Positions 18,047 to 46,719 of a stretch of DNA of 64,000 bases are shown here, one piece after another; within the stretch, counting starts at the first letter, position 1, and the number at the start of each line of letters is the position of its first letter. The position numbers were made by a program, and so were the translations under genes. Under the pieces are notes generated by a model. The model ran no database searches, was not told where the DNA came from, and saw only the letters and a program-made list of their open reading frames with translations. Origin of the DNA: Sabellastarte sp. h YS-2021. Its lineage: Eukaryota; Annelida; Polychaeta; Sabellida; Sabellidae. The stretch spans positions 20,913,160 through 20,977,159 of the forward strand of contig OZ024927.1 of assembly GCA_964017235.1 (NCBI GenBank), written 5' to 3'.

Positions 18047-19513
18047 AAAATAGCATCAGAGATGCCCATACCCCACAGCCTAGGAAAATATTTTCAACAC
18101 CATGAGATACAGAAGCACTGTACCAGTACAAAGTTCAGGATACTTTCAGAGCACTGTCAGTTATATAAAGTTCCAAAAAATGTTTAAATGCAGAAAATAA
18201 TGTTTAAAAGAAAGATAATGCATGTAAAGATGAAGTATTAAAACAAGTCAATTCAATAACAAGATGACAGCATTAATCAGTAAACTAAAATTCAACATTC
18301 TTTATCTACATCTGTATGGCCGAATTATGGTTTAGATGTTTTGAATATTACCATGCATACAGAAGTGGTCATACATTTAATGAACGCTTATGGGTGGTGT
18401 TGGAGCAAAATCTGTGGCTCACTTGATGAAATTCTATCTCTTACAATGGGAAGTTATGAAAGTAAAATTCTTAATAAATTCTAATATGAATTAACAGTGC
18501 TTAATCTGCATCAAAAGACAGATCCAAAGGTGCAACAAGATTTTAAAGGTAAAGGTCACTATGACAAGGTCATGGAGTGGGGTCACACCATGACGTTGCA
18601 CAACTACACCCCCTAACCAATATCCCTACCAAGTATCAACTTCCTACACCTTACAGTTTCCGAGATATAGCCTGGACAAGATTTTATAGGTCAAGGTCAC
18701 TACGGCAAGGTCAAAGGTCAAATCAAGGTCAGACCATGACGTTGCACAACTACACCCCCTAACCAATGTCCCTACCAAGTATCAACTTCCTACACCTTAC
18801 GGTTTCTGAGATATAGCCCGGACAATATTTTCAAACTCAAGGTCACTACGGCAAGGTCAAAGGTCAAATCCTGGTCAGACCATGACGTTGCACAACTACA
18901 CCCCCTAACCAATGTCCCTACCAAATATCAACTTCCTACACCTTACAGTTTCTGAGATATAGCCTGGACAAGATTTTATAGGTCAAGGTCACTACGGCAA
19001 GGTCAAAGGTCAAATCAAGGTCACTCCATGACGTTGCACACCGACACCCCCTAACCAATATCCCTACCAAGTATCAACTTCCTACACCTTACAGTTTCTG
19101 AGATATAGCCCGGACAAGATTTTATAGGTCAAGGTCACTACGGAAAGGTCAAAGGTCAAATCGAGGTCACACCATGACGTTGCACAACTACACCCCCTAA
19201 CCAATGTCCCTACCAAGTATCAACTTCCTATACCTTACGGTTTCCGAGATATAGCCCGGACAAGATTTTCAAACTCAAGGTCAGTACGGCAAGGTCAAAG
19301 GTCAAATCAAAGTCAGACCATGACGTTGCACACCTACACCCCCTAACCAATGTCCCTACCAAGTATCAACTTCCCACACCTTACGGTTTCTGAGATACAG
19401 CCCGGACAAACTTTTTCCCGCCGCCCGCCGACAGGACGCCCGCCCGCCCGCCCATCCGGACACCATGGGTGAAAACAATACCCCGACAGCCCTTAAGGGC
19501 TGTGGGGTAAAAA
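18047..19513 (+). mobile_element. Tandem-core Helentron-like element, family i, most complete copy
   Basis: The left end is AAAAAATAGCATCAGAGATGC, with the subterminal repeat TACCCCACAGCC at 18069-18080. The right end is the palindrome ACAGCCCTTAAGGGCTGT, with the inverted partner GGCTGTGGGGTA at 19498-19509, then AAAA. A unique left segment (about 490 bp) precedes a core of about six 147-bp units and a CCCG-rich segment. No coding capacity. The plan (short subterminal inverted repeats, tandem core, 3' hairpin, A/T-run target) is that of Helentron-derived non-autonomous elements. Confidence 0.78.
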
Positions 19514-19631
19514 GCTGTGGTTTATAATTTACCTTCAAAGTGAGAAAATTCCAATTATGTAACACACATGGTGGGCAAAGACCTACATTTATATCAGACA
19601 TGTAGGGTGAAATCTTGATGTTATAACACAC

Positions 19632-19857
19632 CTGTAAGGTGACAAAGGCTCTGGTTTTATTCTCTAATTTGTCAATGTCCAAACTTCTCTTCCAGTTATA
19701 TTCTCCATAAGGGACCATCTCAAAAGGCACAATTTGGTCCTGCAGCTGTCGCTCACCAATGGCCAACCTCTGCTCTATCAGGGGACTCTCAGGGTCCAGT
19801 GTGTGTGTCCATTCACAGTAGACTTCAGTTTGAACAGGAGATAAGTATTCTGTGCAC
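19632..19857 (-). CDS. Host gene exon 13
   Basis: 226 nt, phase 2 in, phase 0 out; acceptor CTCTTTAG, donor GTGTGT after CAG. It encodes YCEWTHTLDPESPLIEQRLAIG, a core in which ESPL replaces ESGI, and ends TRAFVTLQ. The open frame runs on into the intron and into a mobile element, but the donor and the fit of exon 14 (VINAVGL) end the exon here. Degenerate copies of the donor region recur in the intron on both sides of the inserted element. Confidence 0.84.
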
Positions 19858-20454
19858 CTAAAGAGAATTGGTATTACCCATAGTATGAACATAAAACGTT
19901 TTTGGAGACATAGTATTTTGCAAGTTTGGTATGTACTCAAAGGTTGTCACCTCTGTGTTGATTTAAGACTGTAACAAGCAGCAATAATGAGGACTAGTCC
20001 CAATATGACACTGACTGGTGAATGGGACATAAACTGTTACTTTGACCCCTGTGTGACAACAATGAACTTTCATTATGTGCATCATATAAAAAACTGAGGA
20101 GACAAGAGTCAAACACATTTCTGACTAAATTAAAAGGAGACTCCTGTGTGAACTTTGTATTTTGGGTCTTTAATGTATTTTAAGACAGCAAATCTACATA
20201 TAACACAGTGCCCAGTATGCGATATTAGCATTTTTAATTATTGCTATGTAACAAGGAGTACCTTTGTATTAGTTAGATTTTGTATGTAGTTAGAAGAGCG
20301 GAAGAAACTAGTAGACACAGTTGTTCAAGGTTCTGTCAGCCAACAGCAAATAACTACAAACTTACCCATTTCAGGTTGGTATTGGCGCAGCTCCAAGCTA
20401 TTTGCCACTTGTAGAAGGCCAACCCACACAGAGATAACAGCATTTTACTACATT
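19858..20454. other. Intron sequence upstream of exon 13
   Basis: About 600 nt without recognised repeats, exons or terminal structures. Confidence 0.55.
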
Positions 20455-23425
20455 AAAAATAGCATCAGAGATGCCTGTACCCAATGTCCCTACCAAGTGT
20501 CAACCTTCTACACCTTATGGAATCTAAGAAATAGCACAGACAAGATTTTAAAACTCATGGTTACTTTGACAAGGTCAAAGGTCAAATCAAGATCACAATA
20601 CAAGCATTCTGACGCATGCATTTATCTCCCGCCGTATAAATTAGATGTACTAAAGATAGTGGAATATAAATTTTCTTGTGAGATGGAGGCACATGTAGAA
20701 GTGACAAGTTTAATGTTTGATTGCAATACTTTTAAAGACAAAAGGCATTTACTCATTTTAGTAGCTATTACTCTGCCATCCAAAGAGCTACAGTTCTGCA
20801 ACTTTATTATGCAGTAGATCAACCCAAAGTAGGTAAGGACGTATTTAGAAGAAATTTCTTATCTGTAACACTTTTAGAGATAAAAGATATTTACTTATTT
20901 TAGTGGCTATTACTCTGCCATCCAAAGAGCTACAGTTCTGCAACTTCACTATGTGGTAGATCACCCAAAAGCAGGTGAATGACTTCTTTAGAAGAAATTG
21001 CCTACCTGTAATACTTTTAGAGATAAAAGACATTTACTCATTTTAGTAGCTATTACTCAGCTATCCAAAGAGCTACAGTTTTGCAACTTCACTATGTAGT
21101 AGATCACCCAAAAGCAGGTGAATGACTTATTTAGAAGAAATTGCCTACCTGTAATAGTTTTAGAGATAAAAGACATTTACTCATTTTAGTAGCTATTACT
21201 CAGCTATCCAAAGAGCTACAGTTCTGCAACTTCACTATGTGGTAGATCACCCAAAAGTAGGTGAATTAGTTATTTAGAAGAAATTGCCTACCTATAATAC
21301 TTTTAGAGATAAGACATTTACTCATTTTAGTAGCTATTACTCAGCTATCCAAAGAGCTACAGTTCTGCAACTTCAATATGTGGTAGATCACACAAAAGTA
21401 TGTGAATGATTTATTTAGAAGAAATTGCCTACCTGTAATAATTTTACAGATAAAAGACATTTACTCATTTTAGTAGCTATTACTCAGCTATCCAAAGAGC
21501 TAGAGTTCTGCAACTTCACTATGTGGTAGATCACACAAAAGTACGTGAATGGCTTATTTAGAAGAAATTACCTACCTGTAATACTTTTAGAGATAAAAGA
21601 CATTTACTCAATTTGGTAGCTATTACTCAGCTATCCAAAGAGCTACAGTTCTGCAACTTCACTATGTGGTAGATCACCCAAAAGTAGGTGAATGACTTAT
21701 TTAGAAGAAATTGCCTACCTGTAATACTTTTAGAGATAAAAGACATTTGCTCATTTTAGTAGCTATTACTCAGTTATCCAAAGAGCTACAGTTCTGCAAC
21801 TTCACTATGTAGTAGATCACCCAAAAGTAGGTGAATGACTTATTTAGAAGAAATTGCCTACCTATAATACTTTTAGAGATAAAAGACATTTACTCATTTT
21901 AGTAGCTCTTGCTCAGCTATCTACTCACTTAGCTATTGACCTACACCTGCAAAAGCAACAAAAATATAAAGGACACCAGGAAAGTAAGCTTTTGACAACT
22001 GAATAACAAATGAAAAGATTTGCCTAACTTTGGTACTTGTGAAGGTATTTGACATTTATTTCCATCATAATTTTGGTACAAATAAGAACATAGCTAATTG
22101 CTCACTTATGACATGCAATGGAACCCCAAATGATATGCTATCTTATAGTTAAGGAAAAAGTAGCTGAACAAATTATTTCAGGAAAATCCTGTAACTGCAG
22201 TAGTTTTTGAGTTACAATGGATTTACTCAACAGTCACAATTTCAAAGTAGCTATTACTCAGCTGTCCAGTGTGCAACAGGTTTGCAGCTTTACTATCTGA
22301 TAGCTCATCAAAAACTAGATGAATAACATATTTGAAAATATTTCCCTAACTTGAATACTTTTGAAGATATTTGAAATTTACTTATGTTGTTATTTTCCTA
22401 CAAATAAGAAAATAGCTATTACTCACTTATGGCATGCAACAGAACCCCAAACTATATGCCATCTTATAGTTAAGGACAAAGTAGCTGAACAACATATTTT
22501 AGGAAAATACTCTAACTGCACTAGTTTTGGAGTTACAATGGATTTACTCAACAGTCACAATTTCAAAGTAGTTATTACTCAGCTATCCAATGTGCAACAG
22601 ATCTGAAACTTTACTATGTGATAGCTTATCAAAAAGTAGATGAACAACATATTTGAAAAGAATTCCCTAACTTTAATACTTTTGAAGATATTTGACATTT
22701 ACTCATGTCATTATTTTGCTACAAATAAGAAAATAGCTATTACTCACTTACGGCATGCAATGGGACCCCAAACTATGTACCATCTTATAGCTAAGGACAA
22801 AGTAGCTGAACAACATATTTGAAGAAAAAGTTTTAACTGCAATAGTTTTTGAGTTATGAGCCCTTTACTCCAAGTAGCTAAGATTGCTATTACTCACTTA
22901 TCTTTAGGCCTAAGTCCATAAAACCAAAAAATTTTTCGAGGGCGTGAAAATTCATTGGGACAATTAATTTACAAAAAATCTGTAGCTGTAGTAGTTTTGG
23001 AGAAATCTGCGTGACTAACTAATGCACGCACGCACACACCCACGCACACACAGGCATCATTTCATAATCTCCCTCCCGGGCTAAAGCCTGGCGGGAGATA
23101 ATAATGTTGCACACCTATAACCCCTAACCAATGTCCCTACCAATTATCAACTTGCTACACCTTACGGTTTCCGAGATATAGCCCGGACAAGATTTTATAG
23201 GTCAAGGTCACTACGGCAAGGTCAAAGGTCAAATCAAGGTCACACCATGGTGTTGCACACCTACACCCCTAACCAATGACCCTACCAAGTATAAACTTCC
23301 TACACCTTACATTTTCTGAGATATAGCCCGGACGAACTTCCCCACCCCACCCACCCGCTCGCCCATCCAGACCCCATGGATGAAAACAATACCCCAACAA
23401 CCCTTAAGGTCTGTGGGGTAAAAAA
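20455..23425 (+). mobile_element. Family i element split by a nested family iii element
   Basis: The outer element starts at AAAAATAGCATCAGAGATGCC (20455) and has one core unit to about 20600. The core resumes at about 23102 (GTTGCACACCTATAACCCC) and the element ends at about 23425 with CCCTTAAGG.. GTGGGGTAAAAAA. Between lies a complete family iii element. The outer copy has few core units and lacks most of the unique left segment. Confidence 0.75.
20622..23101 (+). mobile_element. Tandem-core Helentron-like element, family iii, nested copy
   Basis: Subterminal inverted repeats TTATCTCCCGCC (20622-20633) and GGCGGGAGATAA (23090-23101) are perfect. The right one also folds with ATCTCCC at 23067 into a terminal hairpin. 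The core has eight units of about 142 bp (20750-21930: AAATTGCCTACCTGTAATAC, AGTAGCTATTACTCAGC) and then longer related units of about 320 bp (22000-22900). A CACACGCA-type microsatellite (23025-23052) precedes the hairpin. No protein. Confidence 0.75.
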
Positions 23426-23469
23426 CTTGTTATTAACCACTGGGCCCCTGAGGACCTCTATTTCAGGCT

Positions 23470-25446
23470 TGTTATTATTGTATCCACCGGAAGCATCCGG
23501 TTGATACTTTGGTTTAGCGTTCGCTACGCCGCCGCCGCCGCCGCGCGTAGAGAGATTTTTGGCGTTAACACTCTAAGAGGAACACAACAGCAGCTAGGTT
23601 CACCAAATTTGCAGGATATCTTCATTGGGGGGTAAGCTTCTCTGGGAAGGAAAATAGCCTCATTCTGAAAAACAAGATGGCCGCCACGGGCATTTCTTTG
23701 AAAATAATCTACATTTTTCTACTGGCTGTTACTCATAGGTAGAAGGTTGAATCTCTTCATAAGTGATATGTATGACACATATACATGTCCTCTACAACCT
23801 TGCACACATTTGACCTTGAAGCTCCTAACTCGAGGTCATCCACGGAGTGCCGAAGTAACCCACATAGAGGACTTTAAAAGTGCCTATATCTCCCTTATTA
23901 TTGGTCCTAGAGGTTTGCAATGTGAAGCCAACCTATAAGAAATCATGTGCTGCGAATCTTCTGATGTGGTCAGATTTGACCTTGGACCCCTCCTTCAAGG
24001 TCAAACGAGGATAGCCAAACTTAAAAGTGCTTATAACTCACTTATTATCGATCCTAGAGGTTTGGGATGGTAAATCAACATATAGGAAATCATGTGCTGC
24101 GAATCTTCTGATGTGGTCAGATTTGACCTTGGACCCCTCCTTCAAGGTCAAACGAGGACAGCCAAACTTAAAAGTGCTTATAACTCGATTATTATTGGTC
24201 CTAGATGTTTGGGATGGTAAACCAGCATATAGAAAATCATGGGCTGGGAATCTTCTGGTGTGGTCGGATTTGACCTTGGGCCCCTCCTTGAAGGTCAAAT
24301 GAGGATAGCCAAAGGTAAAAGTGCTTATAACTCGCTTATTATTGGTCCTAGAGGTTTGGGATGGTAAACCAACCTATGGGAAATCATGGGCTGGGAATCT
24401 TCTGGTGTGGTCGGATTTGACCTTGGGCCCCTCGTTCAAGGTCAAATGAGGACAGCCAAACTTAAAAGTGTTTATAACTCACTTATTATTGGTCCTACAG
24501 GTTTGGGATGGTAAACCAGCATATAGGAAATCATGCGCTGGGAATCTTCTGGTGTGGTCGGATTTGACCTTGGGCCCCTCGTTGAAGGTCAAATGAGGAC
24601 AGCCAAACTTAAAAGTGCTTATAACTCGCTTATTATTGGTTCTAGAGGTTTGGGATGGTAAACCAACCTATAGGAAATCATGCGCTGGGAATCTTCTGGC
24701 GTGGTCTGATTTGACCTTGGGCCCCTCCTTCGAGGTCAAACGAGGATAGCCAAACTTAAAAGTGCTTATAATTCGCTTATTATTGATTCCAGTGGTTTGG
24801 GATGGTAAACCAACATACAGGAAATCATGGGTGGGGAATCTTCTGGTATGGTCGGATTTGACCTTGGGCCCCTCCTTCAAGGTCAAGTGAGGACAGCCAA
24901 ACTTAAAAGTGCTTATAACTTGCTTATTATTGGACTTAGAGGTTTGGGATGGTAAACCAACATATAGGAAATCATGGGCTGGGAATCTTCTGACGTGGTC
25001 GGATTTGACCTTGGGCCCCTCCTTCAAGGTCAAACGAGGACAGCCAAACTTAAAAGTGCTTATAACTCGCTTATTATTGGTCCTAGAGGTTTGGCATGGT
25101 AAACCAGCATATAGGAAATCATGGGCTGGGAATGTTCTGGTGTGGTCGGATTTGACCTTAGGTCCCTCCTTGAAGGTCAAATGAGGACAGCCAAACTTAA
25201 AAGTGCTTATAACTCGCTTATTATTGGTCCTAGATGTTTGGGATGGTAAACCAATATATGGGAAATCATGGGCTGGGAATCTTCTGGGGTGGTCGGATTT
25301 GACCTTGGGCCCCTCCTTGAAGGTCAAATGAGGACAGCCAAACTTAAAAGTGCTTATAACTTGCTTATTATTGGTCCTAGAGGTTTTGGTGCATTGTCTT
25401 TACGGTGGATACAATTTGCATCGGTTTTCCGATGCGCTAGGTCTAG
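23470..25446 (+). mobile_element. Tandem-core element family v with Helitron-like 3' end
   Basis: Inverted repeats ATTGTATCCACCG (23477-23489) and CGGTGGATACAAT (25403-25415) are perfect. The core, 23930-25390, is ten head-to-tail units of 147 bp (GAAATCATGGGCTGGGAATC, TTGACCTTGGGCCCCTCC). The right end has a hairpin (stem GCATCGG 25418-25424 with CCGATGC 25429-25435) followed by CTAG at 25443-25446 and a T, the form of a Helitron 3' terminus. A GCC-rich segment follows the left end. The long open frame across the core exists only because 147 is divisible by three. Confidence 0.72.
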
Positions 25447-25480
25447 TTTTTGTTAGGTAATTAATCTGCCACAAAATTTG

Positions 25481-25550
25481 CATGAACACTTTAATCAGCA
25501 GTTCTGTCACATCAACATTTAACTTAAAGGCTAGAGAAGTTCCCTCTATT
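25481..25550 (-). pseudogene. Possible relic of the end of exon 12
   Basis: The plus-strand block GTTCTGTCACATCAACATTT near 25500 resembles GTTCTGTCACATCTACAGTT of exon 12 at 25663, with further weak similarity on both sides. It could be a decayed partial exon duplication next to the donor. The match is short and may be chance. Confidence 0.3.
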
Positions 25551-25641
25551 AAATTTACAAAAAATATCTAAACTAGGACATTAACATTGCTTATCATGCT
25601 TAATTCATCTTATTTTATTTATACATTGTGGTATGACCTAC

Positions 25642-25867
25642 TTGAATCCTTCAACCACTGGTTCTGTCACATCTACAGTTAAAGCTGGAGCCACTGCCTC
25701 CCTCACATTTCCTGCCAGATCTGTTGCTATGACAGAGAAGATGATAGTCTCTCCTGCTTCCATGGTAACTGCCCTGATAGCGATCTGCCTGTCTGTGGAC
25801 AAGGAAGCAGGATGTTTGTCATCTTCCAAAGGAAGAGCTCCAGCCATCCAAGTGTCATTCAGTGCAC
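25642..25867 (-). CDS. Host gene exon 12
   Basis: 226 nt, phase 1 in, phase 2 out; acceptor TATAACAG, donor GTAGGT. It encodes GALPLEDDKHPASLSTDRQ, then TMEAGETIIFSVIATDLAGN (closing strand), and the linker LTVDVTEPVVEGF. A faint partial copy of the end of this exon can be seen in the adjoining intron at about 25481-25550. Confidence 0.86.
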
Positions 25868-26552
25868 CTGTTATAAAGGAATCATGAGTTGTGACAGATT
25901 CTTTTTTTCACATATACATAAAGATATACAAGACCGAGAAAGTTAATTATTTTCCCTTATCAGCTGATGGGTCCCTGGCAAGAGATAAAGTCTTAAATCT
26001 GTAAAAATAAGCTTTATTGTAATTCTAAATGGTATTTCATATACTCCTTTATTTATGATAATGGTATGACTAATTAATGTATCAACAAATTACTTTAGGA
26101 ACTATCACACCAAACAGTTCAACAGAAAACCCTATTACAGGTCATTCAAATTAAGGACACCATTACAGGACAAAATTGTCAAACAACAACCATACAATTA
26201 CAATACAAAAGTGAAACAGGTTTAATATTCAAAAGTATCGACTTCTCTTATGTCATCATAACCTATATTCCAGTCCAACAAAGAGAAGTTATTTCTGTAA
26301 TTATGACTATCTTGTGTCTTGATAACAATTAGTCTATTAAGCAAAAATAAATTACAATATAATTCAGTCCGCCCCTGAGCTGTATTTTCAATCCACTGTA
26401 CGGAAGTTATATTCTGTCTGAAGACCCTATTTCATATGGATGTAACAACTGATGTCATACATATTCGGTAAGAAGTGGAAATTAGTTATATTACATAAAG
26501 TCACTTTTTATACCTTGGCTGCAAATACGTAATCTTTAATAACAATAGTCAC
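25868..26552. other. Intron between exons 11 and 12
   Basis: About 680 nt of unique intron; no repeat or exon was recognised. Confidence 0.55.
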
Positions 26553-26746
26553 CTGCAGCATCATCAGTCGTGTTCCAGGCCAGTGCGATGGAATCGTACT
26601 CCATCTGGAACAGACTCGACCCCTGGTGAGAGATTTCACTGTCTGTGTCATTACCAAACTCTCCCAGTGTCACAAACACCACGTCTGGAGGTCTGATGTC
26701 AATCAGGATCCCATCAGAGCAAGAGTGAAGGATGTCCTCACTGCAT
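26553..26746 (-). CDS. Host gene exon 11
   Basis: 194 nt, phase 2 in, phase 1 out; acceptor CTGTGTAG, donor GTGACT. It encodes two cysteines (RCSEDILHSCSDG), a linker of the form LIDIRPPDVVFV and the strand SIALAWNTTDDAAG, a core variant without ESGI. Exon 12 completes the module. Confidence 0.85.
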
Positions 26747-27280
26747 CTACACAGGTCAAGTGAGATATGTGAAATCAGTTACCAATTATAGTACGTTTTA
26801 ATGATCAGAAATATCTGCATGCCATTGATGCTGACAATTCAGCTGAGGAAAGCCAACAACTTTCCAACTGGAATTCATACTTAAGTCTCATTGACTGTGA
26901 TAATATCATGAAAATACTTGATTTTTATATGTTTGTGATATGTAGATGCTAAATATGATAACAACTAACCATATGCATCAACAGGGTTTGGAACTTTCTG
27001 CTCCAAAGTTATTTGAATTTTACATTTGATGATTGAAGGCCAACAAGAATAAATTCAATTAATTGTTTTGGTCTTCTTCATCCTGACTAAATATACATAC
27101 TATGGAAATTTAGATTAGCTAATTATGTATACATATACATTGTATATATGTTAAGGTAAAGTTGTGTAACCAACAATTTTGCAAAATTACTGCATGTTTT
27201 AGGGAGTTTGCTAATATAGGTCATATATGGCTTGCGGTGGATAGTAAATGTTAATATATTGTATAGGTAGATGTGCTTAC
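26747..27280. other. Intron between exons 10 and 11
   Basis: About 530 nt of AT-rich unique intron without mobile elements. Confidence 0.55.
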
Positions 27281-27617
27281 CTGTGTCCTGTATGAGCCCT
27301 GACTGATGCATATAGAATATCTCCATGTTCCAGAGGTAAATGTATTTCAGTGATTGCATGAGACTCATTTAACATCACAATCCCATATGATGAATATGGC
27401 AGGATATCTGAGTATCCAGGTTGGCTGCCCAGGGCCCACTCGTAACCACGGATACCACAGGCTGGACTGTCAAAACCTTGGAAAGTCATACCCACTGTGA
27501 CTGTATCTGTCGAGTAGTCTTTGTCTACATACAGTTCACGACCATCGTAAATAATGCCAGGTGTGTTCTCACCATACACATGGATGGGTCGAGAGTTGAT
27601 GACTTCAGATTTAACCC
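27281..27617 (-). CDS. Host gene exon 10 (complete FN3-like module in one exon)
   Basis: 337 nt, phase 1 in, phase 2 out; acceptor TCAACAG, donor GTAAGC. It encodes a variant module: a tyrosine and aspartate rich first part, then FQGFDSPACGIRGYEWALG in which CGI replaces ESGI, and the closing strand ILYASVRAHTG. It is the longest exon found here. A short element-free intron of about 530 nt follows. Confidence 0.86.
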
Positions 27618-27886
27618 CTGTTGAGTAAAATAAAATAGAAAAATCAGAATGATTTCATGAAAATTACTGAATATAGACCTTAGAATAATCATTGGTTTGC
27701 AACATAATACTGAGACTTGCTCAACTTCCAATACTGAGGACATTGTGAATTGTATATCCTTGAAATGACATTATTATTTAAAGGCTAATATGTAGCTAGC
27801 AATACAGAAGCATCCTGTTACATGCTGAAACCGATTATATGATAACATGTAGCACAAACCTGGATTAATCAGTAACCTAGAAATTT

Positions 27887-28620
27887 AAAATAGCCAGCCT
27901 CGGCAGGCAAGAACCCCAGCCCACAAGTACAGCTAAATGGCCAACAACATTGAGATTTGAGAATATCTTAGGAACAACTTCTGTTGTAAGAAGTATAGAG
28001 AACCCATAAGATGTTCTACAAAAGATTCTCAGGCCATGATTTCTTACAATTAGTTTTCATATTCTGAAGCCCAAGAAACAATTATAAGGGAGATATAAGG
28101 CCTTTTTAATATGATGACCCTCCTATTTGGCATTCAAGATGTGATATGGTGGTCATTTCCTTCCTAAACACAATTAGTCTCAGGCAAGATTTCCTATCCA
28201 TTTACATTTTGTGCAAATCTGATGAAGCTAGCTGCAATATATTAGGTTACAGAAAACATTAAAGATTCTAGAACAAACTTTAAGACACAAAAAGTGTTTT
28301 AAAAGTTCTAGATCCTCTTAGGGTAAACATATCTTGAAAATTTGGTGAAAATCTGTGTAGGGGTTTAGTCTGTGGAACACCCACAAACTTTTAAGACTTG
28401 AAAATCTTAAAAATGTTGCCATGGCAACAACTGTTACCAGATACCTCCCAAAACCTAATCAGCTCTAGATCTTCTTGGAGTAAACATACCCTAAAAATTT
28501 GGTGAAAATCCGTGAAGGGGTTTAGGCTGTGGAACACCCACAAGCTTTATGCCCACCGACGCCACCCGGATGGTGCAGGGGACGACTATAGCCCCAGCCT
28601 TTATGGGCTGGGGTTAAAAA
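27887..28620 (+). mobile_element. Tandem-core Helentron-like element, family ii, short copy
   Basis: The left end is AAAATAGCCAGCCTCGGCAGG, with the subterminal repeat AACCCCAGCCCA (27912-27923). The right end has the perfect inverted partner TGGGCTGGGGTT (28604-28615), the hairpin CCAGCC..GGCTGG and AAAAA. The core is short, with units containing AGGCCATGATTTCTTACA and AAAATTTGGTGAAAATC. Confidence 0.75.
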
Positions 28621-28882
28621 TTACACGCTATAACTATGAGTTACTTCTTTAATTGAAATTTTGTTATTTAAATGTAGCTATAAAGAACTGGGTCATGTCA
28701 ACATAATAAATAATTAGACACATAGCAATGTGAAAACATTAATAGACATTACTATTTGTGTGTTTTATTGTGTGTAAACAGACAAAAAGGTACTAAAATG
28801 TATGACTATTTCTGCCTCTTAGATCCGTCTTAGAAAACTACATACCTACTAACAGGTGGGTAAAATATTGTAAAGTGTATAC

Positions 28883-29017
28883 CTGCTCCATTCAAAGCAT
28901 ATATAGATACATAGTAAAGTTCTCCTGTTTCAGCTGTCACATTAAGCAGGATTCCATCAATGTAACCATCTGCTTCAGTACCAAAGTCTCTGTATCCCCC
29001 AGTTACAGATGAGTCCC
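28883..29017 (-). CDS. Host gene exon 9
   Basis: 135 nt, phase 1 in, phase 1 out; acceptor GTGTTAG, donor GTATAC. It encodes GYRDFGTEADGYIDG, an NVTAETGELYYVSIYALNGAG closing strand pattern and one NVT sequon. The intron that separates it from exon 8 is about 12.6 kb and contains the LINE, two SINE or LINE related insertions, a DIRS-type element and several tandem arrays. Confidence 0.84.
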
Positions 29018-29137
29018 CTAACACAAAAATATCACTCTCAAATGTCAATATCATTTTGACAGGGACATTCCCGAATAGTCTCAAATAATAAAATCTGAAT
29101 GAAAAATAATTTAAAAGTCAAAACATAACCATCTATT

Positions 29138-36110: not shown

Positions 36111-36880
36111 AATAAGGGAGACATAAGAGCTTTTCAGCATGATGACCCAAATTGACCTTGCAGCAGTGCTCAAAGGCAAAATTCTGAACTTGCTAAAGAT
36201 TTGCAGGCCATGACTTTCTATTGGTTATTTTCCAATTTCAAGCCATAGGAGCAATAATAACAGAGATATAAGGTCTTTTTTATATGACCCCACTTGACTT
36301 TGAAGCAGGGGTCAAAAGTCAAAATTGATGCTTGCAATAGATATACAGGGTATGACTTCTTGTGGCTTGTTTTCACATTTGGAAGCCCTTGAATCAATAA
36401 TATGGGAGATTTAAGCACTTTTTGATATGATGACCAAAATTTTGTCAAAAGCCAGATTTGACACTCATTAAAAAGTTGGCGGGCCTATATGTTAGCTTTA
36501 CATTTTCAAGCCATAGAAGCAATAATAACAGAGATATAAGGTCATTTGTATGATGATCCCACTTGACTTTAAAGCAGGGGTCAAAGGTCAAATTTAACAC
36601 TAACAATTCATATTCATAGGCCATGATTTCCTATAAGTTGTTTTCACATTCCGAACCCACAGAACAATGAATGATAAGGGAGTTATCAGGCTTTTTTTGA
36701 TATGATGACCCCCTACTTGACATTAAAAATGTGACATGGCAGCCATTTTGCTTTTAAAACAAGGTCAAAATTACTCTCATGCAAACTGTCCTAGTCATGT
36801 ACATTTTCTGCAAACCATTTATCAAATAAGTGTTATGTCTTCGTATGATTTTTGGATTTTTAAATCTGAAGATGTTAAAA
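36111..36880. repeat. Family ii-type tandem array
   Basis: About five units of roughly 150 bp with AGGCCATGATTTCCTATAAG, GGAGATATAAGG and GGGGTCAAAGGTCAAATTT. No terminal structures are visible at either end; the right side meets DIRS copy D. Confidence 0.6.
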
Positions 36881-39800
36881 AATTGCAAATTGAATATTAA
36901 ATAAATTTTTATAAGTTAATACCTTACCTAATGGACACTTTGCTATACCGGTTGGTGCAGACCAGGATGCCAAACATCAGAAAAAGATGTCCTGCATTTC
37001 AACAGCAGGGTCAATCCCGTACTGTGCATTCACTAGGTGGCGCATGGCGCATCCTTCCTGTCCAGATGGCATGATGTCACAGCATCTTTTTTGTTGTCTA
37101 AACCTATTTAGACCCCTAGTAAGCTGATAACGGGGTCAGCTGGGAGGGCCTCACCTGTCCATTAAATAAGGTATTTACTTAAAAATTTAATTTATTCATT
37201 AAATTTGCAACATTATCACCTTTAAGTTAATACATCTTACCTAATGGACAATTTGCTAGAATAACTACTGCTTGATAGAAGGGTGAGTTACTAGGGACTG
37301 CAAGTGAACTCAAAAATTAAGGCAATAAAGGACTCAAACAGGACTCTAGTCAGTCCTATAGGTCAGTTGTCAGTGTCCAGGTTGCCAGCAGCATACCAAC
37401 ATTGCCCCCCCCCCTTTTTAAACAGACCTGTTCTGAGGTAAGGAAAGAGAGGTATGAGTTCTGTCCCTTACAGAAGGGTGTAACCACTCATTGGTGAATT
37501 TTTTTCAATTTTTGTCTATCTCCAAGATAACTGGACTATTGGTGTATCTGTTGAGAAGCCACAACTGGACCCAGATGAAAGAGCTCTGAATCAGCCCAGG
37601 CCATTTCCTTCAGATAGAATTGTGTGAAATTGTTATGACTTCCAATGACAGGCTGATAGAAGTTGTTTTAAGGAAACTAATGTCTGAAAACCCTTAGAGA
37701 CAGCAAAGGCCTTCACTTCATGGGCTTTCTGCTGATATAAGGTGAGGGCCTCCTAGATCAGAGAGCTCATAGCAGAGAATCACTGTTTGCTTGATCCATG
37801 AGTAGATAGTGGCAGGGGAGATATCTTTGTCGAAGCCTTTCTTGAAGTAGACTTCCTTGTTCTGCCTGAGGCCTTCAGTCCTATCTAAATAGTAGTGCAG
37901 GGCTCTGACTGGACATAGGGACCTATGCCCATGTGGACAAAAGGTGATGGTCCTAATGTAATTACAGTAAACAGTTAAAATACAGCACCAGAACACCTAT
38001 CAACCTCAAGTGATTTATTCAGACTGGGGACCACGGCTGGAATAACCAGTGCCCACACTGTTTAGACCTTCTTTGGCAAGCTGGCTTTTGGATAGAAAGC
38101 TTGGTGAGGGATAAAGAGACATCTTGGACCAGTCTGACTGGTGTCTGACTTACTTAGCCAAACACTGATCTCACTCCTGCACTTGCCAGAATCCAAAGCT
38201 AAGGGGAAGGCAGTCTTGAATGCCAAATGCTTCAAAGAAGCCTCTTTAAGGGGTTCAAAAGGAGCTGGTGGTGCCCTAAAGTCCACATAATGTCTGTGAC
38301 ACCACTTTGTAAAAGTGGTCTACTTTTCCTCATAGACTGATTTGGTTGAGCCTCTTTGAGGCACCTCAATTTGTGCTGCCATTGCCTCAGAAAAGCCATG
38401 CTCTTTGATAGCTGAGGCCCTCGGAGCCAAGCATGTAGATTTAGGTTTGACAGATTCCTGTGAGGAGTCTGGTTGAAAGGCTGTGTCAATAGATTGGGCA
38501 GGCACGGGGGAGGATCTGGCTTGACATAACCACTAGATCCCAAAACCAGGTCATGGTGGGCCATCCTGGCAATTACAATGATTCTCCAATAGGGGTAGTG
38601 CCATAACTTCACTACCACATTGCCCAATATCAGGACTAGTGGGAAGGCATATGGATCCAGATCCTCCCAGGACAGACGGTCACCTGCCTAGGCAAGGAGA
38701 TCTGGTACTGGTGACACAAAATATGAGCCTGTTTTTTTTAACCTTGTAGCAAACATATCTGAGGTTGGTGCCCCTGGTGTATATCAACTGAAAGACCTCT
38801 GGAAGGAAAACCCACTTTGCCTGGATGGTTTGGCCTAGTTTGAATAGCTTGTCTGCTATAACATCCAACCAGCCTGGAATCTGTCGGGCCTTGAGAGCCA
38901 CCTGTTTCCTGGAGCACCGGATCACGATACTCCACAGAAGGGCACACAGTGGGCCCGATCTCATACCTCCTTGTTTATATAGGCAATCACTGTGGTGTGG
39001 TCTGTTGCTATAAGAATGATCTTGCTTGAGCAGAGGTCTTAGAGCCAGGAAGATCGCCTTTAGTTCCAGATAGTTTATGTGCAACTTACTTTCTAGAAGG
39101 GACAAAGTTCAACTTGCAGTGTGTTCCACTAAGTGAATGCTCCCCCCTTCTTTCGATGCGTCTGCAAAGATTTGCACAGCATGACTGATGAGATGTAATG
39201 GTTGGCCTTGAAGAATGTTTTCTTTCTGAAGCCACCATTTTAATGGAAGGTAGAGTGAACTTGGGATAGGGATCACCTTTTCTAGTAATTCTGGGACCCT
39301 CCAGTTGTTCTTCAAGTGCCACTGTATTTGTCTCATATGGAGTCGACCTAGCTGGACTTGCTTTTCCGTAGCTGTCAACAACCCTATCAAGGACACCAGC
39401 TGCCAGACAGGGCAGGTTGGCTTGGACAGTAGTTTCTGTATCTTTGCAATTAAGGTCTGCCAATGCTCTAGCACGGGTTTGACCTTGCCTTCCTGAAGTT
39501 GAAATGGTAGCCTACTAAGTCGAAGACTTGTTTGGGGTTCAGTTCTGATTTGTTCATGTTTACCATCCAACTTAATTTCTAAAGAGTTTGTGTATGCTGT
39601 AGATAGGTTTGGTGGTCACTCTGACCAACCAGTCGTCTAGGAACTGGAGGATTCTCATACGCTTCTGTAAAGCCATCAGTTTGACCTCCTATACCACCAC
39701 CGTGAATTTCATGGGTGCTGTGGAAAGACCAAATGGTAGTGCCTTGTAGGTTTAACTTGAACGTGAAACCGGTATTTCCTGGACTGGGTCTGTATTGGAA

Positions 39801-40180
39801 TGTGGAAGTAGGTGTCCTTGAAATTGTGTCTTTCTTGCCATTACATGGCCACACACCCCTCTCTTTTGTCCTGGTGATGCCATGTTGTGTAATACCCGTC
39901 ACAATATGTAGTAGAAATTAAAACAAATTTAAATCTGCAGAAAAAAACCTTTTTCTATTTCAGAGAGCTTCTGTAAAACAAGTCTGCAGAGTGCACACGC
40001 CAAAAGAGACAGATGACATGACACCATTCTGTCTAGACAGGAAGGAAGTACCATGCGCCACCTGGTGGACCAACCCTGCTGGTGGAAACACAGGACATCT
40101 TTTTCTGACGTTTGGCAAGCTGGTCTGTGCCAACCGGTTGTAGCAAATAGTCCATTAGGTAAGATGTATTAATGCAACAA
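36880..40180 (-). mobile_element. DIRS-type retroelement, copy D (broken)
   Basis: Inverted terminal repeats lie at about 36885-37260 and 39990-40180 (AAAAAGATGTCCTG, GTCTAGACAGGAAGG blocks). On the minus strand, tracts of a tyrosine recombinase (about 37718-38640) and of a reverse transcriptase plus RNase H (about 38680-39900, with FADASKEGG and a KWWLQKENILQG stretch) can be recognised. A gag part was not seen. The copy belongs to the same terminal-repeat family as copy A, and has several breaks. Confidence 0.75.
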
Positions 40181-40259
40181 GGGTGCAGTGGCTGGCTTTC
40201 TGCCAACCATGGAGTCGAATCTTGGGATAGCAATGGGTGTTGACATCAATGTAAATTGT

Positions 40260-41220
40260 TCTATTATCGCCCACATTTGTAAACCGCTTGCAAAGATGTT
40301 TACAGATCACTGGGAAAGGTCTGTTTTGCTTGAGAATGAAAATATTACGTTTGCGTAGCAAAATATGTTGGGTATTTGTAGTGACCAGAAACTTGATAGG
40401 AAGGTTTTATAAATAGAGGGGTCCTCTATGTAAGTCCGCAGTATGAATATTGATTTTAAAGGGAGAAGACGTATTTTAAATTGTAATCGTGGATTATATA
40501 AGATCAGCGAACTAGTTCATATAATAAATATAAAACACATTCGTATTATGTATATGTATAAAGTGTGTTATGTGGATATTTTACACAAGCAAACTGTAAA
40601 TATTTTTGGCCAAATATTCAATAATATTCAGTTAAAATAAGGAAATTTTGAAGGAAAAAGATGTAGGCAATACATCGATGTTGCAATCTTCATCCAATAT
40701 TTCTTGTGGCCATATTTAACATTTACAAATATTTTAAAGTGAAATAAAATAACCTTATTTTCAAAAGAAAGATCTTCTATTTAAACCTTTGCAGATCTTT
40801 GTAGTATTTATATTCACTGATGAAAGGTGATCAGCTCATGAATATAATTAAATGTACAAGTCCACAAATAGATCTTCAGTTATATTTACACCGTGGCCAA
40901 GCTGGTGTATTTTGTCTTCTTTTTATATAAGCTGTTGATAATCAGTATTTTAATCTCACTGTTCTCACATATAATATATATATATATATGTATGCACCTT
41001 ACTTTTTAACAAATAGATTTCTTTTAAACTTTTGTAAATCCATCATCATTTGTCAAGCATTTGATCTTAAAGCAAATATGTAGACGTTTGTCATTGCTGA
41101 GGGCATATAAACTGCAAATTTGTAATACTTTCATTCTCAAGCAAAACAGACCTTTCCCAGTGATGTTTACTCCAAACATTATATTGCATATTTTCCAGAT
41201 ATATAAAATATTTTAGAAGT
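40260..41220. repeat. Inverted repeat pair in the intron
   Basis: The segment at about 40304-40350 (CACTGGGAAAGGTCTGTTTT, GCTTGAGAATGAAAATATTA) recurs as its reverse complement at about 41125-41172. The arms are about 45 bp and lie about 770 nt apart. They may be arms of a small DNA element, but no target duplication or terminal motif was found. The AT-rich middle has no coding signal. Confidence 0.55.
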
Positions 41221-41646
41221 TCTTGCAACATTTCGAAACAGCTGACAGACAAATATTTAATCAAGTGAGAACTTCTAGGAAATGGAAACTCCAATAGCCT
41301 CTTCCAGTGGTTGAATGCAGAACTACGGAGTTGCGCATATATTTTTTCTTTTATAAAATATACCTTAATAAAACATTTAAAAAATTAAAAATGGCAGAGT
41401 GTATACTATACACCTTAATGTACAGATATGTGTACAAATATTATACAGAATTTGGATATTCAAAGGCTTAAACGGCCGATTTAAAATCGTGGCCACAACC
41501 CAGTACATAACTCAAATCAAAGATTCGACTAATAAAATCAAATATTTTCACCAAGCAGAATCAGTAAAGAATGAATATGATTGTCAGTGACATATGTGAT
41601 GGTCACTGAAACCAATTAACCATTGTTGGTAACCGAGCAACATCAC

Positions 41647-41797
41647 CTTCAAATATTCCCACAGCCAGCATGAATCTGATGATGCCACTTTCATGGTCAT
41701 AACCCACCCAGGATGCTTGGATACCATGATGATTGTCGTGGATAATTTCTCCTGCATCATTTAGAAATTCATCTGCACCGTAACTACCAATGTAAAG
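41647..41797 (-). CDS. Host gene exon 8
   Basis: 151 nt, phase 0 in, phase 1 out; acceptor CTATTTAG, donor GTGATG. It encodes a strand with IGSYGADEFLND and the core SWVGYDHESGIIRFMLAVGIFE. The donor choice is fixed by exon 9, which restores the expected EGDSSV run and the phase. It is the shortest first-half exon seen apart from exon 15. Confidence 0.8.
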
Positions 41798-41959
41798 CTA
41801 AATAGCAGTAGAAAAAGAACAGACAACATGCCAGTCCAAAAGGTCATCATACTGTTCAAAAGATGTACGTTTACAGACTAAGACACCTAAAACTAATATT
41901 AGACACCAACCAAAATATATTTCCACTATACTTGTTCTTATGATGCAGCAAACATAAGG

Positions 41960-42321
41960 AACACATTAGTTGCTTAAATCCCAACAGATCTCCTACCTCT
42001 CTAACATCCTTGAAGTCAAACTTAAAATCTTACCTGTTCTTCAAGGCTGATTCACCTTAGTTTCTATTCTTTCCTGAGGCTGTGTCATTAAAAAGTCTTA
42101 GTCAAGTCTTAGGTTTAAGTTGCACATAGTTTTGAGACAAAAGTTAAGCCTAAGACTTGGCTTAAACCATCTATCAATAGGGTCCATGGTGTTTCCATGG
42201 TTGTTGACCGTTTTAATGTCCCCAGATATCCTATGGACTCATTCTACTGGATTTGTTGTACCACACAATTTGCAGTTTGAACAAACTAAGCACCATAAAA
42301 GTCATATTAGAATTAGAATTC
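41960..42321 (+). mobile_element. 5'-truncated LINE tail
   Basis: Near 41998-42060 the plus strand reads SLTSLKSNLKSYLFFKADSP and a stop, which matches the C-terminus of the LINE at 34490-34554. The fragment ends at 42321 with CCATAAAAGTCATATTAGA and ATTAGAATT, the same tail type. It is a dead, severely truncated insertion of a related LINE. Confidence 0.7.
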
Positions 42322-42389
42322 ACTGGATGCATCCATACATTGAATACACTGAATAACATTTTGTTATGTTAACATGAACATAGATTTCC

Positions 42390-42812
42390 TTACTGTCACT
42401 ATTCCACAAAAAGTTTTACACAAAGGTTCCTGAAATTTACAGACATGTTCTTTATTAAAAAATCTTTTCTGGGAATACTTTTGGTCTCATTTTGAAAAAA
42501 AAACAGAAGGAAACTAGCCAAGATTTTGTACTGACTGCTGCTATTATCAGCATTAGAAGGTTGAATCTGTTTCTTAGTGATATGTTAAAGGAATGGAAAC
42601 ATTTGACCTGAGGTTCTTAATGTTCAAGGCAATGATGAAGAATGATATGCACAAGTCTATAACAATACAGTGGACACTGTGTAACTGGAACCGGTGTGTT
42701 GAGACCAAAAGTATTCCCAGAAAAGATTTTTTAATAAAGAACATGTCTTTAAATTTCAGGAACCTTTGTGTAAAACTTTTTGTGGCTACCAACATCTGAT
42801 GTGACAGTAATC
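42390..42812. mobile_element. Fold-back element with long inverted arms
   Basis: The arm at about 42400-42490 (CACAAAAAGTTTTACACAAA, GGTTCCTGAAATTTACAGAC, ATCTTTTCTGGGAATACTTT) is the near-perfect inverted complement of 42699-42790. The outer ends share TTACTGTCAC. The arms are about 90 bp around a 210-bp centre with no coding capacity. This is a fold-back or MITE-like insertion; target repeats were not resolved. Confidence 0.7.
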
Positions 42813-43320
42813 TTCACTTTCCTTCAAAGTTATGTTCAGGTATTTATCCGTGTAAAGAAATTGATGATTGAAGAAAGGGGTGGTGGTGGTGATCATTTCA
42901 TTAAATAGGGTTCAATTAGTATTTAATTAGTAAGTGTGTACAAAATAGGGATTAAATGGGGGAAGGAAAAACTTCTCATACTTGATTTAAATGTAAGATT
43001 ATATGTGATTTAGTTAAAAAGCTATCAATGCTGCTTGTGTACACATATTTAACCAACTGAATCCTTCTTACTTGATAAAATGTAATTTTGTGTGCATGTG
43101 AACACAAAAGCCAGACTTACATTTCAAATCTGACATTGAGAAACATATACATATGTACATATAATTAGTCCCCTGTAGGTATAGCCTGATTCAGTTTTGA
43201 GCTTACACAGAAAAAAATCACGATTTTGTTTGATAAATTCAACCCATAATTACAATCCAGATCTGTGGATACTGAAGAGTTTACTGTTTTATCAATGTTT
43301 GATGCTTTATAATGCCTCAC

Positions 43321-43550
43321 CTTTGACATTATCGGGGCTGTAGTATCTACTGTTACTCCCAACGATTCCTGTTTACTGGCTAGAGTTGCCCCATTGATAG
43401 CGATGATCTCTATGGAGTACCGTATGCCATTCTCCAGCACTAAACCATTAATATTTTCTTGGAATTCTGTATCTTTCTGGTTTTCTGGTGTGAAAATCTT
43501 GTACTTTGTATCCTCTGGCCAAATCTGTAAACTGTTCTTGTTTTTGTGTT
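43321..43550 (-). CDS. Host gene exon 7
   Basis: 230 nt, phase 1 in, phase 0 out; acceptor TTTTTCAG, donor GTGAGG. It opens with a lysine and asparagine rich strand, reaches LENGIRYSIEIIAINGA (closing strand of the exon 6 module) and ends with the linker VTVDTTAPIMSK. Exon 8 continues in frame with a new core. Frame continues past the donor for some codons but that extension is intron, as the splice signal and exon 8 phase show. Confidence 0.83.
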
Positions 43551-43832
43551 CTGAAAAATTTCATATTATAATATTTTTGGAGGTAAAATTTCTTTCTTCA
43601 CCAGTTAAAAGGAGGTTCAATAGTGATATTATTACTGAAGTGCAAAGTAATGTTGACCTTCAAATTTCTTTTTTATTATCTGCCACATGATCAATTTCAC
43701 CTAAAATGTAGGACGTACACACCATTGCATATTTTTTAAATGGCCGGCCACTCATTTTAAGTGATACATCAGCCAATTTCATATATTAAGCATACACCAA
43801 TTCCTCAAATTATATCATCTATAACCTACAAA

Positions 43833-44100
43833 CATGTTGTATACGTTATTAGGTAGGTATTGTTGCACTATTTCTGCTGACTTTTGATGCATGTACATGT
43901 GGCGAATGGATACAACACTACCGGTCCCAGTCAGAGCCTAGCTCAGGATGTTTTTTTCTGACATTTGGCGGGACCGGTTGCGCGCCGGACTAATGTATTG
44001 GTCCAGTAGGTAAGATATATTATCTCAATGAAAATGTTGTATACATTATTAGGTAGGTATCTTTGCACTATTGTTGCTGGCTTCTGATGCATGAAAATGT
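43833..44100. repeat. Direct repeat pair bracketing a DIRS-type terminal-repeat fragment
   Basis: A stretch of about 62 bp (ATGTTGTATACGTTATTAGG, TAGGTATTGTTGCACTATTT) at 43833-43895 recurs at 44036-44098 with a few differences. Between them (about 43900-44030) is a terminal-repeat fragment of the copy A/D type (CAGGATGTTTTTTTCTGACA, TTGGTCCAGTAGGTAAGATA). Confidence 0.6.
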
Positions 44101-44189
44101 ATGTAGAAATGGCCGAGAAATCTGAACTTTAAAAATCCAGCTTGTTTTTTTCTATTGAAATGTACTCTGTTATCGAAAAATACTGTCTT

Positions 44190-46710
44190 GTCCCTTGATA
44201 TTTAACTTATTAACAACTAGAAATAGGACGCCCTGTTGATAGTAGATGCAAATAGAAACAGGATAGCATAGAAGAACACACATATCATGTGTAATGTCCA
44301 CCCCATGAACCTTGCCCAAATTGTACAGTAGTCTTACAAGACCCTGTTTCATTTGTAAAATATATCAATGATGCTTAAATATTTATTAGTGTAGATGTAA
44401 ATTATTTCAGCTTCATGCCTTTTTGCATTGGTTGGGTTGAAAATTTTGACGAAATCACTCTATCTTGCACAGTTAAGAAGATAGAAGCAAATTCCTGTTT
44501 TTCTATTTTTGGCAAAAAATTTGAAAATTCAAAATGGCCGCCATTTTTGGGAAAAGGAAAATTTTTTGAAAATTGCCAAGAGTACATTTCTTAGATACCC
44601 TATGAGTCGAAAATTTCAACGAAATAACTCTATTTTGCATGGTTAAGGCCAGTTTGTGTTTTTCCATTTTGGGCAAAAATTCGAAAATTCAAAATGGCCG
44701 CCATATGTGGGGGAGGGGAAAATTTTTTGAAAATTGCAAAGAGTACATTTCTTAGATACCCCTTGGGTCGAAAATTTCGACGAAATCGCTCTATCTCGCA
44801 TGGTTAAGGAGATAGAAGCAAATTTGTGTTTTGCCATTGTTGGTAAAAATTCGAAAATTCAAAATGGCCGCCATTTTTGGGGAGGGGAAAATTTTTTGAA
44901 CATTGCAAAGATTACATTCCTTAGATACCCTGTGGGTCGAAAATTTCGACGAAATCGCTCTATCTCGCATGGTTAAGGAGATAGAAGCAAATTTGTGTTT
45001 TGCCATTTTTGGCAAAATTTGAAAATTCAAAATGGCCGCCATTTTAGGGGCGGGGAAATTTTTTTTAAAATAGCCAAGAATACAATGCTCAAATACCTGT
45101 GGGTCGAAAACTTTGACGAAATCGCTCTATCTCGGACGGTTAAGGAGATAGAAGCAAATTTGTGTTTTGCCATTTTTGGCAAAAATTCGAAAATTCAAAA
45201 TGGCCGCCATTTTTGGGGAGGGGAAAATGTTTTGAAAATTGCAAAGAGTACACTCCTTAGATACCCTGTGGGTTGATAATTTCGACGAAATCGCTCTATC
45301 TCACACAGTTAAGGAGATAGAAGCAAATTTGTGTTTTGCCATTTTTGGCGAAAATTCAAAATGGCCGCCATTTTTGGGGAGGGGAAAATTTTTTAAAGAT
45401 TACCAAGAGTAGAATTCTCAGACACCCTGTGGGTCGAAAATTTTGACGAAATCGCTCTATCTCGCACGGTTAAGGAGATAGAAGCAAATTTGTGTTTTGC
45501 CATTCAAAAATTCAAAATGGCCGCCATTTTTGGGGAGGGGAAAATGTTTTGAAAATTGCAAAGAGTACACTCCTTAGATACCCTGTGGGTTGAAAATTTC
45601 GACGAAATCGCTCTATCTCACACAGTTAAGGAGATAGAAGCAAATTTGTGTTTTGCCATTTTTGGCGAAAATTCAAAATGGCCGCCATTTTTGGGGAGGG
45701 GAAAATTTTTAAAGATTACCAAGAGTACAATGCTCAGATACCCTGTGGGTCGAAAATTTTGACGAAATCACTCTATCTCGCACGGTTAAGGAGATAGAAG
45801 CAAATTTGTGTTTTGCCATTTTTGGCAAAAATTCGAAAATTCAAAATGGCCGCCATTTTTGGGGAGGGAAAATTTTTTAAAAATTGCCAAGAGTAGAATT
45901 CTCAGACACCCTGTGGGTCGAAAATTTTGACGAAATCGCTCTATCTCGCACGGTTAAGGAGATAGAAGCAAATTTGTGTTTTGCCATTTTTGGCAAAAAT
46001 TCGAAAATTCAAAATGGCCGCCATTTTTGGGGAGGGGAAAATTTTTGGAAAATTGCAAAGATTGCATTCCTTAGATACCCTGTGGTTCGAAAATTTTGAC
46101 GAAATCACTCTATCTTGCACGGTTAAGGAGATAGAAGCAAATTTGTGTTTTGCCATTTTTGGCAAAAATTTGAAAATTCAAAATGGTCGCCATTTTTGGG
46201 GAGGGGAAAATTTTTTGCAAATTGCAAAAATTACATTCCTTAGATACCCTGTGGGTCAAAAATTTAGACGAAATCGCTCTATCTCGCACGGTTAAGGAGA
46301 TATGAGCACATTTGCCTTTTTCAGTATTCAAAATAGCCAATTACTCATTTATTTAATTAATTACTCACTCATCTATGAAGCAATTCCCCCCCAAAAGCAA
46401 TCCCATACAAGCTATTAACCCAATGAACCTCCATACCAAATTTCAGAAAGCTAGGCTTAATAGCATTCCTTAAAATGTCTGGAAACCAAAGAGATACTCA
46501 AAAGTAGCAAAGTAGCTATTACTCAGTTAGCTATAGAGCTATTATCACCAAGAGCAATCCCATACAAGCTATTAACCCAATAAACCTGCATGCCAAATTT
46601 GGTAAAGATAGGATAAGAACTGTTGCCTAAAATGTCTGGAAACCAAGTGGGACGACGAACGGCAGAAAAAGCAAAAATAATATGTCCACCCCCGAGTGGG
46701 GTGGACATAA
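44190..46710 (+). mobile_element. Tandem-core Helentron-like element, family iv, full copy
   Basis: The left part has AAATAGGACGCCCTGTTGATAG-type sequence and the subterminal repeat ATGTCCACCCCA (44294-44305). The core (44415-46320) has about a dozen units of about 160 bp with AAAATGGCCGCCATTTTTGG. The right unique part leads to the terminal hairpin: TATGTCCACCCC (46681-46692) pairs with GGGGTGGACATA (46698-46709), a 12-bp perfect stem. The partner TGGGGTGGACAT (46697-46708) matches the left subterminal repeat perfectly in inverted orientation. No coding capacity. Confidence 0.78.
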
Positions 46711-46719
46711 TACTTTCCT

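Follow-up and report, generated by a model that had tools for sequence, protein, structure and literature searches.

The window analysed here, 64,000 nucleotides from the annelid Sabellastarte sp. h YS-2021 (GenBank assembly GCA_964017235.1, contig OZ024927.1, positions 20,913,160 to 20,977,159 of the forward strand), contains members of five families of repeated elements, i to v, which a sequence-only reading had described as unrelated in sequence and alike in blueprint, together with a sixth family, vi. We searched the genome (1.786 Gb in 647 contigs, a chromosome-scale assembly) with each of families i–v separately, scoring 39–40 out of 7,266–9,715 first-look candidates per family, and all five are multicopy, as had been supposed; genome-wide copy counts were made for the ends of family v. 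Taken as a whole, the evidence makes us highly confident that families i–v and vi are best explained as HINEs, which are non-autonomous rolling-circle elements from the Helentron/Helitron2 branch, and the sequence-only reading was correct in assigning them one blueprint of the DINE/HINE type. The elements are as follows, in window positions (subTIR, subterminal inverted repeat):

18051 to 19513, minus strand: family i HINE; 5′ hairpin TTTTTACCCCACAGCCC-ttaa-GGGCTGTcGGGGTA at 19479-19513, GGC-rich microsatellite, array of 6.0 x 146-bp units at 18535-19409, 3′ subTIR at 18069-18080, palindrome at 18053-18065, end in TA and then a T-tract (18047-18050).
27891 to 28620, minus strand: family ii HINE; 5′ hairpin at 28592-28616, short E-type core at 28304-28549, 3′ subTIR and weak palindrome inside 27891-27924, T-tract as target.
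20601 to 23101, minus strand: family iii HINE, inserted within a family i copy; 5′ hairpin TTATCTCCCGCC at 23070-23101, arrays at 20725-21921 (143 bp) and 22000-22856 (321 bp), 3′ subTIR at 20622-20633, 3′ end CTTG at 20601.
20460 to 23424, minus strand: the family i copy hosting this iii insertion, with A-type core on either side of iii.
23478 to 25446, plus strand: family v HINE; 5′ TTGTATCCACCGG-aagcat-CCGGTtGATAC, GCC microsatellite, array of 10.3 x 147-bp units at 23874-25386, 3′ subTIR, palindrome at 25418-25435, end CTAG at 25443-25446 and then TT.
44217 to 46710, minus strand: family iv HINE; 5′ hairpin TTATGTCCACCCC at 46681-46710, array of 11.4 x 169-bp units at 44433-46314, 3′ subTIR at 44294-44305, 3′ end CTAG at 44217 and then TT.
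48398 to 51879, minus strand: family vi, read as a fixed nested chimera; 5′ hairpin AAGTATCCCgcaaGGGACGCTT adjoining 51879, B-type array at 50626-51501, C-type arrays at 48911-50625, internal iii-like 3′ end at 48822-48853, B-type array at 48548-48816, outer 3′ end CTAG at 48398.

Read from 5′ to 3′, the elements open with a run of T's and a subTIR, which a loop only a few bases long separates from the complementary inverted repeat (IR); a microsatellite-like stretch rich in GC and the tandem array come next, and a second subTIR, a palindrome whose strength differs by family, and a short 3′ end complete the common plan. Alignment of the ends across loci shows that families i–iv had been read backwards: the hairpin taken for a right terminus is the 5′ subTIR with its complementary IR, and the left end is the 3′ end, while family v stands in forward orientation with the same plan on the plus strand. 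The claim that the right subTIR copy lies inside the terminal hairpin fails for v, in which the 3′ subTIR stands beside the 3′ palindrome and not within it. The ends proposed for i and ii were correct except for four flanking A's, and the left ends of iii and iv were off by 21 and 27 bases respectively (iii starts at 20601 and not 20622, iv at 44217 and not 44190). Of the perfect 12–13-bp subterminal repeat described earlier, an exact 12 bases is present near both ends of each window copy of i–v, a length reached by none of 500 shuffles in any of the five; the window copy of vi has only six exact bases, a length reached by 237 of 500 shuffles. These repeats are subterminal and lie at unequal distances from the two element ends. 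The earlier reading also rightly recognised that each of i–v has a single strong hairpin, placed at one end, as the 5′ subTIR and adjacent IR fold with z-scores against shuffles of −5.6 (i), −4.3 (ii), −3.3 (iii), −7.8 (iv) and −4.1 (v). The 3′ palindromes of i and v are strong (z −3.4 in both), and that of iv folds at most slightly better than shuffles (z −1.23). End hits shorter than 18 bases were left out of one end survey, and those shorter than 20 bases out of another.

The ends form at least two classes, CTNG mostly before TT in families iii (CTTG) and iv, v, and vi (CTAG), and TA before a T-tract in families i and ii. At the other end, all of i–v begin with T-runs followed by an A or a G. 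We therefore consider it very unlikely that these elements, or at least iv, v, and vi, are canonical Helitrons (Helitron1, with a 5′ TC, a 3′ hairpin followed by CTRR, and an A^T target). It is true that these three families end in CTAG, which conforms to CTRR, that v has a strong hairpin seven bases ahead of it, and that the target of iv and v is mostly A^TT without duplication; but the 5′ ends have TT and a subTIR/IR hairpin where TC is expected, CTRR is absent from i, ii, and iii, the sole Rep protein read carries a Helentron-type motif (see below), and a 5′ TT with a 3′ CTAG is known for the Helitron–Helentron intermediate (proto-Helentron-Pi) of Phytophthora, for which an A/T target and no duplication are reported (PMC4067079; for this and the other published systems cited here, the comparison extends to the parts of each paper that were available). 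Because they share these features, families iv, v, and vi resemble the Phytophthora intermediate, and their ends are closer to the proto-Helentron type than to canonical Helitrons. There is also a resemblance to Helitron2, whose inverted repeats are unequal and which has a hairpin at either end (PMC5148889), although both of these published elements are autonomous and of other lineages, whereas iv, v, and vi carry arrays, have no coding part that we noticed, and occur in an animal.

The insertion sites point in the same direction. Joined flanks of 65 end pairs were compared with the window and the fetched loci, giving 13 spanning matches, of which eight are usable; the five left out are two from a 74-bp repeat at 63 kb, two of family ii at 73–76% identity, and one of family iii at 77% identity with 14 gaps. 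Target duplication is absent from seven of these eight sites (two for v, two for iii, and three for iv), and the remaining one, for family i, is ambiguous. For example, the empty site of a v element within a copy of iv matches at 99.4% identity, that of iii within a family i core has no gap, and for iv within a v core the joined flanks fit if the element is taken to start at TTATGTCC and end at CTAG. The nesting of families noticed earlier is confirmed by the placement of iii within a family i copy. No empty site of family ii is usable, but its four-base flanks are unequal in 5 of 20 pairs, which argues indirectly against duplication and therefore favours T's borne by the element, as published for the Helentrons of Culex, in which variable T's belong to the element (PMC4067079). 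The A/T-rich junctions of the sequence-only reading are likewise confirmed, and, on the TT or AT preference that it proposed to test, the targets are TT or T-tracts and the base before the 5′ TT is mostly an A (8 of 9 pairs for v, 13 of 15 for iv, and 6 of 9 for iii). Exact copies of the v 3′ end number 1709 (0 in a backwards control), and 1653 of them precede TT; TT follows the iii end in four of nine pairs as scored by script, or seven of nine when the end is set at CTTG, one base earlier, and the flanks are reread.

Movement by a cut-and-paste transposase, as miniature inverted-repeat transposable elements (MITEs) or pearl-type elements, might be entertained on the grounds that inverted repeats and A/T-rich junctions are present, that the related clam element DTC84 has been named a MITE (PMC5139131), and that a TTTT duplication is possible for families i and ii. 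We regard this as extremely improbable, given the unequal, subterminal placement of the repeats in place of MITE-type terminal repeats with target duplication, the seven empty sites without duplication, and the copies joined exactly end to end that are described below. The sequence-only reading had named different ends, or target duplications of another transposon class, as observations that would speak against it; two left ends do differ, as given above, and no target duplication pointing at another class was found. IS200/IS605-like single-strand elements were also considered as a candidate class and rejected, as were satellite arrays without element ends, since the ends are sharp.

The same plan has been described for the Cg_HINEs of the Pacific oyster, Crassostrea gigas, with a 5′ subTIR and its IR 1–12 bases away, a microsatellite, an array, and a 3′ subTIR followed by a palindrome (PMC7492417). 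According to the same source, Cg_HINEs have TT or T-rich targets without duplication, arrays of 140–180 bp in fixed orientation, several coexisting families both related and unrelated, double-array elements, and an unknown partner, and the system is therefore not the poorly described one that it had been taken for. The comparison made here is one of plan, and the 3′ CTAG and CTTG ends, inter-family junctions, and a chimera with an internal 3′ end are documented here in a different genome. HINE/DINE-1 elements and Helentrons similarly have subTIRs, an IR nested with the 5′ subTIR, a 3′ palindrome, a TT target with element T's, and a serine in the GSPH motif (PMC4067079), with the difference that an autonomous partner is not linked to the families here. 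The pearl elements and DTC84 of bivalves, likened by description, are modular non-coding elements with short arrays of about 160-bp repeats (PMC7492417, PMC5139131).

Tandem cores are present in all five families, as had been claimed, with measured units of 143–169 bp in i, iii, iv, and v and of about 153–156 bp in ii loci, in place of the 140–165 bp first estimated. That the families are unrelated in sequence is supported by pairwise core comparison, in which eight of the ten pairs are at chance (p above 0.05) and the other two similarities are weak and uncorrected (i with v, p 0.003; ii with iv, p 0.015); the other arrays of the window are each related to one or another of the five cores. 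A shared 36-base core motif, sought in HINE orientation with one occurrence per sequence, scores 156.6 against 60 shuffles with a mean of 150.0, a standard deviation of 3.3, and a maximum of 156.3, which is suggestive at most and is not used here; with both strands allowed the score is 166.9 against a shuffle mean of 154.8 and maximum of 176.6. We tallied the end-to-end pairs of the window and the fetched loci, which number 50 once four doubly counted copies are removed (54 before); in 49 of them the ends enclose the family's own core type or an element that is visibly nested, with the reservation that the i, ii, and iv loci were chosen by whole-copy similarity, which biases the association toward agreement. 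The own core is found in nine of ten i pairs alone (the tenth being the host of iii), 20 of 21 for ii, 17 of 17 for iv (B-type), and the single pairs of v and iii. The unexplained pair is a ii copy at 54165-55762 whose D array is v-like and runs in the orientation of the copy itself, either a nested remnant or a second chimera. Core orientation agrees with end orientation in every segment tallied (68 of 68, or 63 distinct segments without doubly counted copies). The proposed trading of core modules is therefore not seen within i–v beyond nesting and this one ii copy, but family vi joins iv-like and iii-like arrays. We also note that the units of i (18535-19409) and v (23874-25386) hold TCAAGGTCA and AAGGTCA words, which we take to resemble nuclear-receptor half sites.

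Family vi has a 3′ end consisting of a palindrome and CTAG followed by TT, and in less decayed copies its 5′ hairpin reads AAGCGTCCC-loop-GGGACGCTT, the loop being gcaa at one locus (L027) and ggaa at another (L063). Its B-type array is 82% identical to the iv array and its C-type arrays are 76% identical to the iii array; the C block closes in an intact-looking internal 3′ end, GGCGGGAGATACACACCGCATCAGTGGTCTTG, beyond which lie more of the B array and the outer 3′ end. This order is most simply accounted for by insertion of a iii-like HINE into a B-type HINE, after which the nested unit spread through the outer ends, a mirror case to that reported in Fusarium, where several 5′ ends occur on one element after self-insertion (PMC5148889). 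The module order is the same beside all three vi 3′ ends found (the window, L004, and L045), none of these loci having been fetched for vi. Within the C-type array, at 49518-50032, lies a TAGGGGTG...CACCCCTA stretch with AACTTCAC on both flanks, the layout expected of a hAT insertion that made an 8-bp target duplication.

Ends of different families are also joined to each other exactly. A v element is directly followed by another at three places in two loci (noticed initially as contiguous hits, with two of the three then read in the sequence), the exact v 3′ end is followed by a iv 5′ end six times and by a iii 5′ end 11 times, with no such case in the backwards controls for any of the three combinations, and a mixed probe made up of a single Rep fragment plus twelve pieces of element ends, for which 40 candidates were scored, added two less exact v–iv junctions and one i–ii junction. 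The junctions are spread over contigs C1, C2, C3, C4, C6, C7, and C8. Assuming 10,000 insertions per family into about 3.7e8 sites genome-wide (from 0.209 TT or AA per base in the window only), about 0.05 chance junctions are expected per family, a rough figure, since it takes assumed copy numbers for iii and iv, ignores any clustering of HINEs, and is not set against a count at an internal control site. The observed counts exceed this rough estimate, and the size of the excess is uncertain. On whether one enzyme moves a guild of elements, the evidence points both ways: the ends fall into at least two classes, but exact joints link v 3′ ends to members of iii, iv, and v.

One possibility, which we put forward tentatively, is that the v 3′ end acts as a docking site, at which a shared Rep would nick between CTAG and TT and join the 5′ end of whichever family it carried, so producing exact head-to-tail heteromers and, where the end is bypassed, spreading chimeras such as vi. 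It is also conceivable, though we would not call it probable, that a few chance junctions have been amplified as composites with no repeated targeting; family vi shows that nested composites can be amplified, and two of the 11 v–iii junctions are only 7 kb apart on C1, but the junctions lie on seven contigs with three different partners. Moreover, in the list of exact v 3′ ends (which covers C1 up to 84 Mb), the v copy at junction C1:63782149 is included and those at 39770821 and 55701922 are not, and the v variants at these junctions therefore differ. Either favoured 3′-end targets or amplification of a few junctions would be easiest if one enzyme handles the ends of several families. At C1:88786636-88791117, the hit coordinates place a complete v copy and, with no gap after it, two 1255-bp copies, each running from within the array to the v 3′ end.

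As to the source of such an enzyme, the genome has 24 matches above cut-off to the PF14214 profile, several of them within long open frames (2245 and 1783 aa, lengths that would leave space for a C-terminal endonuclease fused to Rep/helicase). The Rep fragment that we read, one of the 24 and part of the 2245-aa frame, ends IRVEFQHRGSPHLHCL and has a serine in its GSPH motif; a serine between G and P is a mark of Helentrons (PMC4067079), and the Rep of this frame is thus predicted to be of the Helentron type. The fragment is present in four near-identical copies (96–100% match). Among the 40 candidates scored with the mixed probe, end-like sequences accompany Rep matches only twice, on C11 (a 5′ end) and C3 (a iii 3′ end). 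The first, at C11:69208130-69208230 (L110), is a 5′ end akin to that of v, with TTATATCCCCAGACGAAAGTCGGGGATATA and a run of GCC, right behind the Rep domain in a 96% copy; we rejected this HINE-like end (C11:69208145) as the partner's own, and it is most simply an insertion into that Rep copy. The second lies about 130 bp outside the Rep fragment at C3:129270684, on the opposite strand. A Rep has thus been found, and among the candidates scored it could not be tied to any of the six families.

We envisage that a Helentron-type Rep/helicase made elsewhere would nick at the 5′ TT, strip off one strand, halt at the 3′ palindrome and end, and join the 5′ end to a TT target. Families of different sequence would share a plan since such an enzyme recognises it, and nested copies would move along as one unit, giving rise to chimeras such as vi. 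The v 3′ end, CTAG and then TT, may itself be a favoured or naturally nicked target, on which further copies of v, iv, and iii would land exactly.

In addition to the sampling bias of the core tally, several observations weigh against the interpretation of these families as HINEs moved by such an enzyme. The 3′ palindromes of ii (z −0.35) and iii (z −0.10) fold no better than shuffles. At the family i empty site the filled site has four extra T's, which may be borne by the element (five T's) or represent a TTTT duplication, and TTTT stands on both sides in all 12 family i pairs (including three with one common 5′ end and one composite, at 20460), as duplication would give. The iv flanks, cut at TATGTCC, are one base too long, which we read as a T borne by the element, a one-base duplication being the alternative. 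A fourth vi-like 3′ end, at L008, is divergent and is not accompanied by an array. The Helentron-type call draws on the Rep fragment and not on the endonuclease domain that marks Helentrons, and neither the 24 PF14214 matches nor the 40 candidates scored with the mixed probe yielded an autonomous element with any of the i–vi ends, so that the enzyme step proposed above lacks an end-matched autonomous element.

Three further features of the window are related to these families:

46711 to 47664, minus strand: fragment of a iv-related element, with the 5′ end retained and a 160-bp array, without a 3′ end.
6356 to 7937, minus strand: further family i copy, whose core supplies the empty site for the iii insertion.
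62969 to 63867, minus strand: family i copy whose 3′-terminal 74 bp is repeated about 2.9 times head to tail.

In the last of these, at 62965-63181, each 74-bp 3′-terminal unit stops at the element's 3′ end and T-tract. We note also that the iv 3′ end is present twice at 11673-16147, 1706 bp apart and with identical host flank, reflecting either a local duplication or an assembly artefact.

The elements described here are of a kind already known from oysters, and form an ordinary but rich set of HINEs; what this genome contributes is the families themselves with their ends, the exact inter-family junctions, and the chimera vi. In vi, a single sequence in which the inner 3′ end can still be recognised shows how nesting can give rise to a double-array element. 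The partner enzyme of the tandem-repeat HINEs of oysters is stated in PMC7492417 to be unresolved, and since this genome has HINE families in abundance and its assembly, at chromosome scale, includes four near-identical Rep copies, the matching of ends to a partner becomes a direct computation. The exact junctions between families, finally, make it possible to test at the level of sequence whether several families are served by one enzyme.

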